Shown here: positions 34,817 through 49,023 of the stretch, piece by piece
Numbering within the stretch: the stretch's first letter is position 1
Layout of the letters: each line of letters begins with the position of its first letter
DNA from: Nocardia iowensis
GTDB taxonomy: Bacteria > Actinomycetota > Actinomycetes > Mycobacteriales > Mycobacteriaceae
Reading direction: 5' to 3'
Assembly (NCBI RefSeq): GCF_019222765.1
Contig: NZ_CP078145.1
Span: 4,278,001-4,342,000, forward strand
Length of the DNA: 64,000 nt
Notes under the pieces: model-generated
What the model was told of the DNA's origin: nothing
Seen by the model: the letters and a program-made list of their open reading frames with translations, nothing else
Databases searched by the model: none
Position numbers and translations under genes: made by a program

Positions 34817-35302
34817 GTGAGCGAGAACAAAGACCCGGGTTACGGGGAGACCGCGGCCGAGACGACGTCGGTCTTCCGCGCGGATTTCCTGAACGAGGTC
34901 GACGCGTCGCGCTCCGGAGAGCCGACCGGCGAACAGCCGGTCCAAGGGGTCGAGGGTCTGCCCGTTGGTGCGGCCCTCCTGGTCGTCAAGCGCGGTCCGA
35001 ACGCGGGCTCGCGGTTCCTGCTGGATCAGCCGACGACGTCGGCGGGCCGCCACCCCGACAGTGACATCTTTCTCGACGACGTCACCGTCAGCCGTCGGCA
35101 TGCCGAGTTCCGTCAGGACGACGATTCGTTCCAGGTTGTCGATGTCGGCAGCCTGAACGGCACCTATGTGAATCGGGAGCCGGTGGACTCCTCGGAACTC
35201 CAGAACGGTGACGAGGTACAGATCGGTAAGTTCCGTCTCGTGTTCCTTACCGGACCGCGGGCCCAGGTGAACGAGCCGTCGGCTGGTGCAGGGAGCCTAT
35301 GA
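34817..35302 (+). CDS. garA: FHA-domain metabolic regulator GarA
   Basis: A 161-residue phospho-switch protein. Unphosphorylated GarA binds and inhibits 2-oxoglutarate dehydrogenase (KGD) and NAD-glutamate dehydrogenase and stimulates glutamate synthase; phosphorylation by PknB/PknG on the N-terminal threonines makes it fold on its own FHA domain. The acceptor motif ETTSVF is at 15-20 (Thr16/Thr17). The FHA domain spans about 55-145: SAGRHPDSDIFLDDVTVSRRH carries the phosphothreonine-binding Arg and Ser, and GSLNGTYVNR the Asn. GTG at 34817 has GAGGAGGAGA upstream. Its last codons overlap a 40-residue small ORF (ATGA). Confidence 0.96.
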   Translation: MSENKDPGYGETAAETTSVFRADFLNEVDASRSGEPTGEQPVQGVEGLPVGAALLVVKRGPNAGSRFLLDQPTTSAGRHPDSDIFLDDVTVSRRHAEFRQDDDSFQVVDVGSLNGTYVNREPVDSSELQNGDEVQIGKFRLVFLTGPRAQVNEPSAGAGSL

Positions 35303-35421
35303 GCACGCGGCGCTGGGTCTTTTCTCGACATGAGGGGCTCGGGGTCATGAAGGAGCTCAGTGTCTCGAAAGGGCTCAGTGTCTTGAAGCAGCTCGGTGTC
35401 TTGACGGATTCGGTGCGGTGA
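35299..35421 (+). CDS. Small ORF bridging garA and ftsR, made of hexapeptide repeats
   Basis: A 40-residue frame that starts with ATG overlapping the garA stop (ATGA) and ends with TGA overlapping the GTG of ftsR (GTGA), so it fills the whole spacer exactly. The C-terminal two thirds consist of four six-residue repeats, GLGVMK, ELSVSK, GLSVLK and QLGVLT, encoded by the 18-bp DNA repeats at 35337-35408; the period of 18 keeps the frame. The N-terminus is short and basic (STRRWVFSR). It may act as a translational relay to ftsR, which has no good ribosome binding site of its own, or as a real peptide. I know of no described family. Confidence 0.6.
   Translation: MSTRRWVFSRHEGLGVMKELSVSKGLSVLKQLGVLTDSVR
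35337..35408 (+). repeat. Four tandem 18-bp repeats in the garA-ftsR spacer
   Basis: Units begin at 35337, 35355, 35373 and 35391, each starting GCTC and with consensus GCTCRGTGTCTTGAARGA. Units 2 and 3 are most alike. The exact 18-bp period preserves the reading frame of the bridging small ORF. The number of units may vary between strains. Confidence 0.85.
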
Positions 35422-36251
35422 CCGGCGCGGCGCAGTGGGCACGCGGAGGCATGTCGATCGGCTCCGTGCTCGACCTGCTGCGTCCAGACTTTCCGGACAT
35501 CACCATCTCGAAGATCCGCTTCCTGGAAGCGGAGGGCCTGATCCGGCCGGAGCGCACGCCCTCGGGCTACCGCAGATTCTCCGTCGCCGACTGTGAACGG
35601 CTCCGGTTCGTGCTGACCGCGCAACGCGATCAGTACCTGCCGCTGAAGGTGATCAAGGAACAACTCGAAGCGATCGACAGCGGTGCGGCGACGCTCGGCG
35701 TGCGGGAAGCCCGCGCCCGGGCGCACTCCGGCCGTGCCGGTGGCTCGGAGTCGGCGCCCTCGGTGTCCGACTCCGAGCACCACACCGAGTCTGGCGGGAA
35801 CCGGAACGGTGCCGCGGCACCGAGGAGGCTCGGCGTGGTCCCCAGTGAGATTTCCCCGGACGATCTGCGGTTCGATCACGAAATCCGGCTCACCCGCGCT
35901 GATCTGCTGGCCCAGGCCGAGATCGACGAGGCGTTCCTCAACGACCTGATCCGGGCCAATCTGATCACCCCCGGTGCCGCCGGATTCTTCGACGGCGACG
36001 CGGTGACGCTGGCCAAAACCGCCAAGGCGATGGCCGAATTCGGTTTGGAGGCACGGCATCTGCGGGCCTTCAAGCTGGCCGCGGATCGGGAGGCCGCGCT
36101 GGTCGCGCAGATCGCCGCCCCCATCGCGAAGAGCCGCGACGCGGGTGCCCGCGCCAGAGCCGAAGAAACGGTGCGCGAACTCGCGGCGCTGTCGCTGACG
36201 TTGCACACCTGCCTGGTGAAGTCGTCGGTGCGGACGTCGCTGGGCGGCTGA
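35418..36251 (+). CDS. ftsR: MerR-family regulator FtsR
   Basis: A 277-residue MerR-type regulator equivalent to M. tuberculosis Rv1828 and Corynebacterium FtsR, an activator of the cell-division gene ftsZ. The winged HTH at about 12-80 has MSIGSVLDLLRPDFPDITIS, KIRFLEAEGLIRPERTPSGY and RRFSVADCERLRFVL. A variable Ser/Gly-rich linker (about 95-140) leads to the conserved C-terminal half starting FDHEIRLTRADLLAQAEID. Starting at GTG 35418 leaves about 11 residues before MSIG, as I recall for Rv1828. There is no Shine-Dalgarno sequence, but the start overlaps the stop of the preceding small ORF, pointing to translational coupling. Confidence 0.92.
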   Translation: MTGAAQWARGGMSIGSVLDLLRPDFPDITISKIRFLEAEGLIRPERTPSGYRRFSVADCERLRFVLTAQRDQYLPLKVIKEQLEAIDSGAATLGVREARARAHSGRAGGSESAPSVSDSEHHTESGGNRNGAAAPRRLGVVPSEISPDDLRFDHEIRLTRADLLAQAEIDEAFLNDLIRANLITPGAAGFFDGDAVTLAKTAKAMAEFGLEARHLRAFKLAADREAALVAQIAAPIAKSRDAGARARAEETVRELAALSLTLHTCLVKSSVRTSLGG

Positions 36252-36423: not shown

Positions 36424-36504
36424 ATGAGTGAGCGAAGCGAGCGAATCATGTCACAGCGTGCATCGCGCGTGCCGGGGCCGAGCGGGAGCGAGGTGCGGGC
36501 ATGA
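36424..36504 (+). CDS. Mini-ORF in repeat copy 1 (26 residues), coupled
   Basis: ATG at 36424 has GGGAGG 7 bases upstream, the best start signal in this spacer. The frame begins MSERSERIMSQRAS and ends in TGA at 36502-36504, overlapping the ATG of the next mini-ORF as ATGA. Probably a translational relay; whether the peptide itself matters is unknown. Confidence 0.5.
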   Translation: MSERSERIMSQRASRVPGPSGSEVRA

Positions 36505-36577
36505 GGGAGCGAAGCGAGCGAACCATGTCACAGCGTGCATCGCGCATGACGGAGCCGAGCGTCAGCGAGGCGCGGTC
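36424..36577 (+). repeat. Two tandem 77-bp direct repeats before the nuclease gene
   Basis: Copy 1 is 36424-36500 and copy 2 is 36501-36577; about 68 of 77 positions agree. Each opens with ATGAG, carries GAGCGAAGCGAGCGAA, then ATGTCACAGCGTGCATCGCG, and ends just before the next ATG. The unit lies exactly between a strong ribosome binding site (GGGAGG, 36411-36416) and the true start at 36578, as if duplicated or inserted at the start codon. Confidence 0.9.
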
Positions 36578-36581
36578 ATGA
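36501..36581 (+). CDS. Mini-ORF in repeat copy 2 (26 residues), coupled to nuclease gene
   Basis: Begins MRERSERTMSQRAS and stops with TGA at 36579-36581, which overlaps the ATG of the nuclease gene at 36578 as ATGA. It is the second step of the stop-restart chain that carries ribosomes from the strong site at 36411 to the nuclease start. Confidence 0.5.
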   Translation: MRERSERTMSQRASRMTEPSVSEARS

Positions 36582-37051
36582 GTGAAATGCGTGTGATCGG
36601 CATTCGTGTCGAGCAGCCACAGAATCAGCCCGTGCTGTTGCTCCGCGAGGTGTCGGGGGATCGGTACCTGCCGATTTGGATCGGGCAGGCCGAGGCCACC
36701 GCGATCGTGCTGGAGCAGGAAGGGGTCACGCCGATCCGGCCGCTGACTCACGATCTGATCAAGATCCTGATCACCGAGCTCGGGCACACCCTCAAGGAAG
36801 TGCGCATCGTCGATCTGCAAGAGGGGACCTTCTACGCGGATCTGGTGTTCGAGAACGACCTGCACGTCTCGGCCCGGCCGTCAGATTCGGTAGCGATCGC
36901 CTTGCGGGTCGGTTGCCCCATCTATGCCGAGGAACCGGTGCTCGAGGAAGCCGGGCTGGTCATGCCGGACGAGCGCGAGGACGAGGTGGAGAAGTTCAAG
37001 GAATTCCTGGAGTCGGTCTCGCCCGACGACTTCAAGGCCACCGACAGCTGA
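36578..37051 (+). CDS. Bifunctional nuclease family protein (DUF151)
   Basis: A 157-residue protein of the bifunctional-nuclease (DUF151) family, equivalent in place to M. tuberculosis Rv1829. Family blocks are VLLLREVSGDRYLPIWIGQA, EATAIVLEQEGV, PLTHDLIKILI, and HVSARPSDSVAIALRVGCPI. The C-terminus is acidic. Some members degrade RNA and DNA in vitro, but the cellular role is not known. I start at ATG 36578 because conserved sequence starts there; a longer reading frame upstream reads only through the 77-bp repeats. Ribosomes seem to arrive by coupling from the mini-ORFs. Confidence 0.88.
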   Translation: MSEMRVIGIRVEQPQNQPVLLLREVSGDRYLPIWIGQAEATAIVLEQEGVTPIRPLTHDLIKILITELGHTLKEVRIVDLQEGTFYADLVFENDLHVSARPSDSVAIALRVGCPIYAEEPVLEEAGLVMPDEREDEVEKFKEFLESVSPDDFKATDS

Positions 37052-48414: not shown

Positions 48415-49023
48415 ATGGCCGGTCGTCGTGAGGAGTCATCCGCAGAGAGCCGTCGTCGCCTGCTCGAGGCGGCGACCGAGTTGGTCGCCGAGGTCGGGCC
48501 GCGCGGCACCTCGGTGCAGGCGGTGGCGGAGCGGGCAGGCATCAGCCGCGGCTCGATCGCCTGGCATTTCGGGTCCAAGGACGGGCTGATCGTCGAGGTG
48601 GTCACGCACGCCTTCGCGACGGCGGAGCAGGAGTACCGCAAGCGCATTGCCGAGGCGGGGACGGTGACGCTCGGTGTCCTGATCGACGCGCACCTGGCCG
48701 TCGTCGACGCGCCGTGCGGGCGCACCTTCGCGACCGTGCTGCCCGAGGTCATGTTGGCGCCGGGGCCGATTCGCGACGCGTATGTCGCGGGCTACCAGAA
48801 CAGCAGGCGGTTCTGGGTCGACGCGGTGCGGGAGGTCACCGCGGATGCACCCGGTATGCCCGATCCAGCAACGCTCGCGGATGTGTTGTTCGGCAGCGCG
48901 ATCGGTGTCAATGTGATGCACCGGCTCGATGCGGGCGTGGATCCGGGCACCGGGCTCGGCTCACTGCAGCAGGTCTTCCAGCTCGCGCTGGACAAGTCCA
49001 CGAAGGATGCGACCGCGTCGTAA
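48415..49023 (+). CDS. TetR-family regulator of the FAH/thiolase operon
   Basis: A 202-residue TetR repressor. The HTH at about 12-58 reads RRRLLEAATELVAEVGPRGT and VAERAGISRGSIAWHFGSKDG. The effector domain is ordinary for the family. The frame is open to ATG 48376, but ATG at 48415 gives a normal N-terminus. By its divergent position it most likely represses the minus-strand catabolic operon starting at 48314. It is convergent with the DM13 gene, 11 bp apart. Confidence 0.85.
   Translation: MAGRREESSAESRRRLLEAATELVAEVGPRGTSVQAVAERAGISRGSIAWHFGSKDGLIVEVVTHAFATAEQEYRKRIAEAGTVTLGVLIDAHLAVVDAPCGRTFATVLPEVMLAPGPIRDAYVAGYQNSRRFWVDAVREVTADAPGMPDPATLADVLFGSAIGVNVMHRLDAGVDPGTGLGSLQQVFQLALDKSTKDATAS

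Follow-up and report, generated by a model that had tools for sequence, protein, structure and literature searches.

Why does a 40-codon open reading frame lie between garA and ftsR of Nocardia iowensis, tied to each gene by a four-base overlap of stop and start codons? It could encode a peptide, it could hand ribosomes on from one gene to the other, or it could be an incidental property of a spacer poor in stop codons. We examined the junction in a 64,000-nt stretch of DNA (the window) from the 8.95-Mb single-contig genome and compared it with the same junction in relatives. Our reading is that the small ORF (sORF) is probably a translated spacer, acting as a conduit for ribosomes from garA to ftsR, and not a peptide gene.

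The garA–ftsR junction in the window

Both genes are firmly assigned, as OdhI and FtsR equivalogs above cutoff (Table 1), and the gene order of garA, ftsR, bifunctional nuclease and MerR regulator is that of a cluster reported, in passages of PMC6683498, to be conserved in Actinobacteria. The coordinates of the sORF, its two 4-base overlaps and its 40-residue peptide are as originally predicted. Its TGA shares the sequence GTGA at 35418-35421 with the start of ftsR, a 4-nt overlap, and this single 40-codon link joins garA to ftsR in an unbroken −4/−1 relay. On the ftsR side an overlap arises almost automatically, since the second codon of ftsR is Thr or Ser.

Table 1. Features of the garA–ftsR region, in window coordinates
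Feature	Position	Strand	Remarks
garA/odhI (FHA-domain 2-oxoglutarate dehydrogenase inhibitor)	34817..35302	+	NCBIfam NF041660 OdhI, 229.8 bits (cutoff 200); PF00498; TGA stop at 35300-35302
ATGA, garA stop and sORF start, 4-nt overlap	35299..35302	+	GGGAG inside garA, ending 3 nt 5' of the sORF ATG
sORF, 40 codons and TGA	35299..35421	+	open frame from the ATG at the garA stop
Unit 1, 17 bp, ATGAGGGGCTCGGGGTC	35330..35346	+	SD-like GAGGGG (by eye) ahead of the ATG of unit 2
Unit 2, 18 bp, ATGAAGGAGCTCAGTGTC	35347..35364	+	internal ATG in frame
Unit 3, 18 bp, TCGAAAGGGCTCAGTGTC	35365..35382	+	SD-like AAAGGG (by eye) 5' of unit 4's in-frame TTG
Unit 4, 18 bp, TTGAAGCAGCTCGGTGTC	35383..35400	+	tandem-unit cut
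Unit 5, 17 bp, TTGACGGATTCGGTGCG	35401..35417	+	degenerate initiation module directly 5' of the ftsR GTG
ftsR (MerR-type activator of ftsZ in Corynebacterium glutamicum)	35418..36251	+	NCBIfam NF050798, 280 bits (cutoff 150); GTG overlaps the sORF TGA
MIRU-like element, two tandem 77-bp copies, outside the spacer	36424..36577	+	26-aa ORFs chained by ATGA into the bifunctional nuclease gene
Bifunctional nuclease gene, next gene of the operon after ftsR	36578..37051	+	PF02577 match

The 18-bp repeats that had been predicted in the spacer were recovered by Tandem Repeats Finder (period 18, 4.2 copies, 75% matches, 35333-35408). When cut at NTGA-like starts, the array divides into units of 17, 18, 18, 18 and 17 bp over 35330-35417, directly followed by the ftsR GTG. 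The spacer is a degenerate tandem array whose units resemble the initiation module of ftsR itself, and since an 18-bp unit keeps the frame, the copies in the window are fused into one ORF. That the spacer is a copy of a dispersed element was ruled out because 35290-35430 is single-copy in the genome (best non-self match, E = 0.17). Near-matches to a 14-base core, with at most one mismatch, are scattered genome-wide (58 versus 32 for a reversed-pattern control); around one of those outside the spacer, at window position 48669, the stretch looks unrelated. An RNA structure masking the ftsR start was also rejected, as the fold of 35290-35470 is no better than those of shuffled sequences (z = -1.0). 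This fold contains a long stem that pairs about 35308-35325 with unit 3.

The sORF has candidate initiation signals of its own. Because GGGAG precedes its ATG by 3 nt, an internal in-frame ATG and TTGs lie behind SD-like units, and the SD of ftsR is weak (best anti-SD duplex -3.3 kcal/mol), the sORF of the window may, judging from these motifs, also gather new ribosomes.

The spacer across Nocardia and in other lineages

We parsed 147 loci, one per genome, from 147 of the 148 genomes of the genus that were searched, the window's own included; in the one remaining, G055, the ftsR match was weak (E = 1.4e-6), and its locus is not among the 147. A further 18 Nocardia loci (L009-L025, L087), which may duplicate counted genomes, were read but excluded from the genus counts, and loci L056, L066, L068, L069 and L076 are not in the parsed set. 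We scored as a strict relay any series of small ORFs, with ATG, GTG or TTG starts, that leads from garA to ftsR through −4 or −1 overlaps.

The spacer is hypervariable over the 147 loci. Where garA ends in TGA (96 loci), ftsR starts 7 to 129 nt downstream; where it ends in TAG or TAA (51 loci), the distance is 10-22 nt in 50 and 62 nt in one. Of the 96 TGA-type loci, 78 have a strict relay, made up of one to three small ORFs, versus 43.6 expected from dinucleotide shuffles of fixed length, and the count rises to 88/96 if CTG starts are allowed and to 92/96 with gaps of up to +8 nt (50.4 expected, single-base shuffle). Both genes are nevertheless present without a strict relay in the other 18 TGA-type loci and in all 51 TAG/TAA-type loci. 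The original prediction had named a broken spacer frame beside intact garA and ftsR as the observation that would count against it, and some genomes, those with these loci, do show it; what stands is that a relay of small ORFs is commoner in relatives than in shuffled spacers.

The manner in which the spacer changes is also informative. Two tree neighbours of the window, L092 and L093, have spacers 36 nt shorter, corresponding to two 18-bp units, and keep the frame with 28 codons, which is the change in repeat number that had been anticipated. Several spacers that have been frameshifted (L112, L133, L139 and L100) retain a relay by way of a different ATGA. From a tree of garA-ftsR, parsimony gave 28 changes in length, of which 15 are multiples of 3 (p = 0.02), so that the expectation of changes in threes is borne out as an enrichment and not as a rule; a strict relay is kept after 22 of the 28 versus ~58% expected from random indels (P = 0.02). 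In L101 an in-frame gain of 75 nt was inferred, the reverse strand of which resembles, by eye, GAGCG-rich dispersed repeats.

The absence of a visible ribosome binding site for ftsR, part of the original prediction, describes this genome but not over half of the TGA-type loci: the anti-SD duplex is -5 kcal/mol or lower in 55/96 of them, with the best spacing at 7 or 8 nt in 78/96, and an SD-like site precedes ftsR in 26/51 TAG/TAA-type loci. Directly before ftsR many relatives have, by eye, the block ATGAARGRCTCGG.. and then NTGA: an AAGG-type SD, about 9 nt and a start overlapping a stop; anti-SD pairing is maximal 7-8 nt before ftsR. L193, L194 and similar loci of the 98-nt class have a 9-bp hairpin (by eye), GCGCCGATC...GATCGGCGC, just before the last mini-ORF.

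Repeats of other periods occur at the same junction. A 17-bp unit amounts to a 6-codon mini-ORF of 21 nt that overlaps the next by 4, and 17-nt steps are seen in Nocardia L113 (two links) and L133 (three links) and, twice, in Millisia brevis (L039). A MAG (L084) has two 20-nt steps that copy the ftsR start (codons VSAPD), and Mycobacterium aquaticum (L064) has three 32-nt steps into ftsR, although it fails the strict relay test as its first mini-ORF begins 3 nt past the garA stop. Units of 17, 20 and 32 bp all have a length of 3n-4, and each copy recreates the 4-base overlap, whereas the 18-bp unit of the window and an 18-nt length step in L224 are 3n. The 3n-4 length is a pattern among these examples, other periods not having been systematically sampled, and not a tested rule.

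Outside Nocardia, garA and ftsR overlap directly by −4 or −1 in 13/13 Rhodococcus-type loci (L026-L038). A set of 30 mycobacterial-type loci comes from the genomes nearest to M. aquaticum by FtsR, presumably mycobacteria. In 14 of these loci the two genes overlap directly by −4 or −1, in 9 they lie 0-5 nt apart, and in 7 an insert separates them, with the strict relay kept in 1/7 of the last. Inserts with GCGCGAAGAG-like sequence lie at the junction of mycobacterial-type L065, L067, L071, L085, L088, L257-L259 and L262, most of them without a strict relay.

Conduit, neutral spacer or gene

Ancestrally, garA and ftsR probably met in a direct stop/start overlap, as they do in the Rhodococcus-type loci. 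In part of Nocardia the two would then have been separated, to some extent at least through tandem duplication of an ftsR-like initiation module composed of an SD-like AAGG, about 9 nt and NTGA. Units of 3n-4 would generate a 4-base stop/start overlap at each copy and with it a relay of mini-ORFs, while 18-bp units would leave the copies fused in one frame, as in the window. By termination-reinitiation, ribosomes that complete garA would begin again on the sORF and, after it, on ftsR. Two papers bear on what such a spacer could preserve: at six E. coli and Haloferax gene pairs reinitiation is almost abolished at a distance of about 20 nt (PMC10666635), and an M. tuberculosis uORF that overlaps ppe2 by AUGA is needed for expression of ppe2 in reporters (PMC11260477). 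For these reasons a gap of 115 nt, if left untranslated, should break the coupling of ftsR to garA, whereas translation of the spacer would maintain it.

A competing explanation, less likely in our view, is that tandem duplications and indels simply widened a tolerated gap, that ftsR starts from its own SD and that the frame is open by accident. Stops are few in GC-rich DNA, and the end overlaps are nearly free given a TGA stop and Thr or Ser as codon 2 of ftsR. For the window spacer alone, 56% of dinucleotide shuffles of fixed length give a strict relay, from which we infer that bridging in this one genome is about a one-in-five event (56% x 1/3 for a fitting length). Across the genus, forced reading in the other two frames reaches ftsR in 69/96 and 51/96 loci versus 80/96 in the real frame, and relay openness discriminates only partly because these control frames so often reach ftsR too. 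The strict relay is gone from the 18 TGA-type and 51 TAG/TAA-type loci, including the one with ftsR 62 nt away, and an ftsR preceded by an SD-like site, as in the 55 TGA-type and 26 TAG/TAA-type loci above, may start alone. The 7 mycobacterial-type inserts, of which one retains the strict relay, the failure of L064 in the strict test and the 18-nt units and steps that depart from 3n-4 also count against the conduit reading. We also dropped the absence of stops in the 23 spacers of length 70 (the 70-class) as evidence, since with 0.76 stops expected and 0 seen their openness is uninformative.

Several observations speak against a purely neutral spacer. The excess of relays over shuffles holds for all 96 loci and for cluster representatives at 90, 80, 70 and 60% spacer identity (14/18 versus 9.2 expected at 70%, P about 0.001; 5/7 versus 3.3 at 60%), although at 50% it is not significant (4/5 versus 3.1, P = 0.20). 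Length changes are enriched in multiples of three, frameshifted spacers keep a relay through other ATGA junctions, and the SD of ftsR in the window is weak. Taken together, these are moderate evidence for selection on the relay and no more, because ancestral lengths are uncertain, the genomes are not independent and the control frames often reach ftsR.

If the spacer is translated, is its product what matters? The peptide is not the conserved feature of the spacer. Changes fall 28/33/21 by codon position in the 70-class and 8/5/3 in six loci of the 94-class, whereas our positive control, the opening 11 codons of ftsR from those 23 loci of the 70-class, shows a coding pattern of 1/3/24. The relay links range from 3 to 40 aa over the genus, the sORF belongs to no family in Pfam or NCBIfam, and a protein search with its peptide, which needs shared 5-residue words, yielded no protein but the window's own. 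Two pieces, MSTRR and EGLGV, do recur in the window's own clade, where changes in ten loci fall 14/20/23, but the third-position excess (23/57) is not significant (p = 0.16). There is accordingly no sign of purifying selection on the amino acids; we rejected a functional peptide on the codon-position counts and the protein search, and a functional small protein is very unlikely.

It is equally improbable that ftsR truly begins at the internal ATG of MSIGSV (35451), in which case the TGA/GTG overlap would be irrelevant. Within 35445-35453 a GGAGG lies one base before this ATG, and across the 147 genus loci a similar GGAGG precedes the MSIG ATG with a mean anti-SD duplex of -9.5 and -8.7 kcal/mol at spacings of 0 and 1 nt. 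A spacing of 0-1 nt is too short for a normal SD, and the 11 codons upstream change as coding sequence does (1/3/24, above). In passages of PMC6683498, C. glutamicum FtsR shortened so as to begin with MSIGV did not reverse the growth defect of the deletion, which agrees with a true ftsR start upstream of MSIG.

Relation to known systems

The closest known kind is the MIRU (mycobacterial interspersed repetitive unit), reportedly described by Supply et al. in 1997. As presented in passages of PMC12548453, MIRUs are mobile repeats of many mycobacteria that insert at start codons, with an internal ORF coupled by −4, and little disturbance of downstream expression has been proposed. The garA-ftsR spacer shares this logic, in that gene-adjacent repeats contain a short ORF whose −4 overlap ties it to the gene that follows, but it is not a member, because it is single-copy and not dispersed; its 17-18 bp units instead resemble the ftsR start. 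Loci with a direct overlap, such as the 13 Rhodococcus-type and 14 of the 30 mycobacterial-type loci, could correspond to empty sites, but Nocardia spacers differ by many small steps, not by one insertion.

A likely MIRU example lies 1 kb downstream in the same operon (36424-36577). Its two 77-bp copies are identical at 68/77 positions and sit precisely at the ATGA with which the nuclease gene begins, and the length of 77 is 81-4, again 3n-4. The element is dispersed, with 41 matches in the genome including the window's; in a pattern match, three of nine loci examined (L248, L252 and L253 of L247-L255) have further copies, either single or in tandem, with ATGA or GTGA at their borders. By eye, the ftsR–nuclease junction of 30 loci (L089-L118) comprises 17 empty sites and 13 with the element or a remnant, and the relatives L098 and L099 differ by its presence or absence.

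Among the papers listed by literature searches, with subscription papers mostly outside their coverage, there was no earlier description of this ORF, none apparent of MIRU-like elements in Nocardia and none that appears to fit the combination of a small ORF, tandem repeat and coupling. The cluster paper (PMC6683498) has the same order of odhI/garA, ftsR, nuclease and MerR; its passages report cotranscription of the C. glutamicum odhI/garA-ftsR cluster and suggest a functional link, with no mention in them of an intervening ORF.

We tentatively propose, as a conjecture more likely wrong than right, that operons can stretch without losing coupling by duplicating in tandem, in units of 3n-4, the SD-start/stop junction of the downstream gene, each copy renewing a 4-base overlap and giving a self-made relay of mini-genes, variable in number, that may set the FtsR:GarA ratio and of which MIRU-type elements would be the mobile counterpart. 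If the conduit reading is right, the sORF would be neither a gene nor junk; as a conduit it would allow an operon to absorb insertions. Open frames that are not conserved yet lie between co-translated genes could be accounted for in this way. The reading would also supply a simple search rule elsewhere (unit length 3n-4 or 3n) and would link a central-metabolism switch to a cell-division activator in a manner open to testing.

Two further systems share parts of this design, as far as the passages of the respective papers describe them. Termination-reinitiation at ATGA overlaps (PMC6728339, PMC10666635) has the same 4-nt stop/start overlaps that are found here at both ends; here, by contrast, a non-conserved mini-ORF, not a gene, joins two genes, and the coupling is predicted from sequence. 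In the uPPE2-ppe2 pair of M. tuberculosis (PMC11260477) a short ORF likewise overlaps by AUGA a downstream gene without an SD, but that uORF sits in a riboswitch leader, whereas the sORF is an intercistronic repeat bridge. Bridging reading frames as such are already known; the version made from the junction's own repeats seems to be new.
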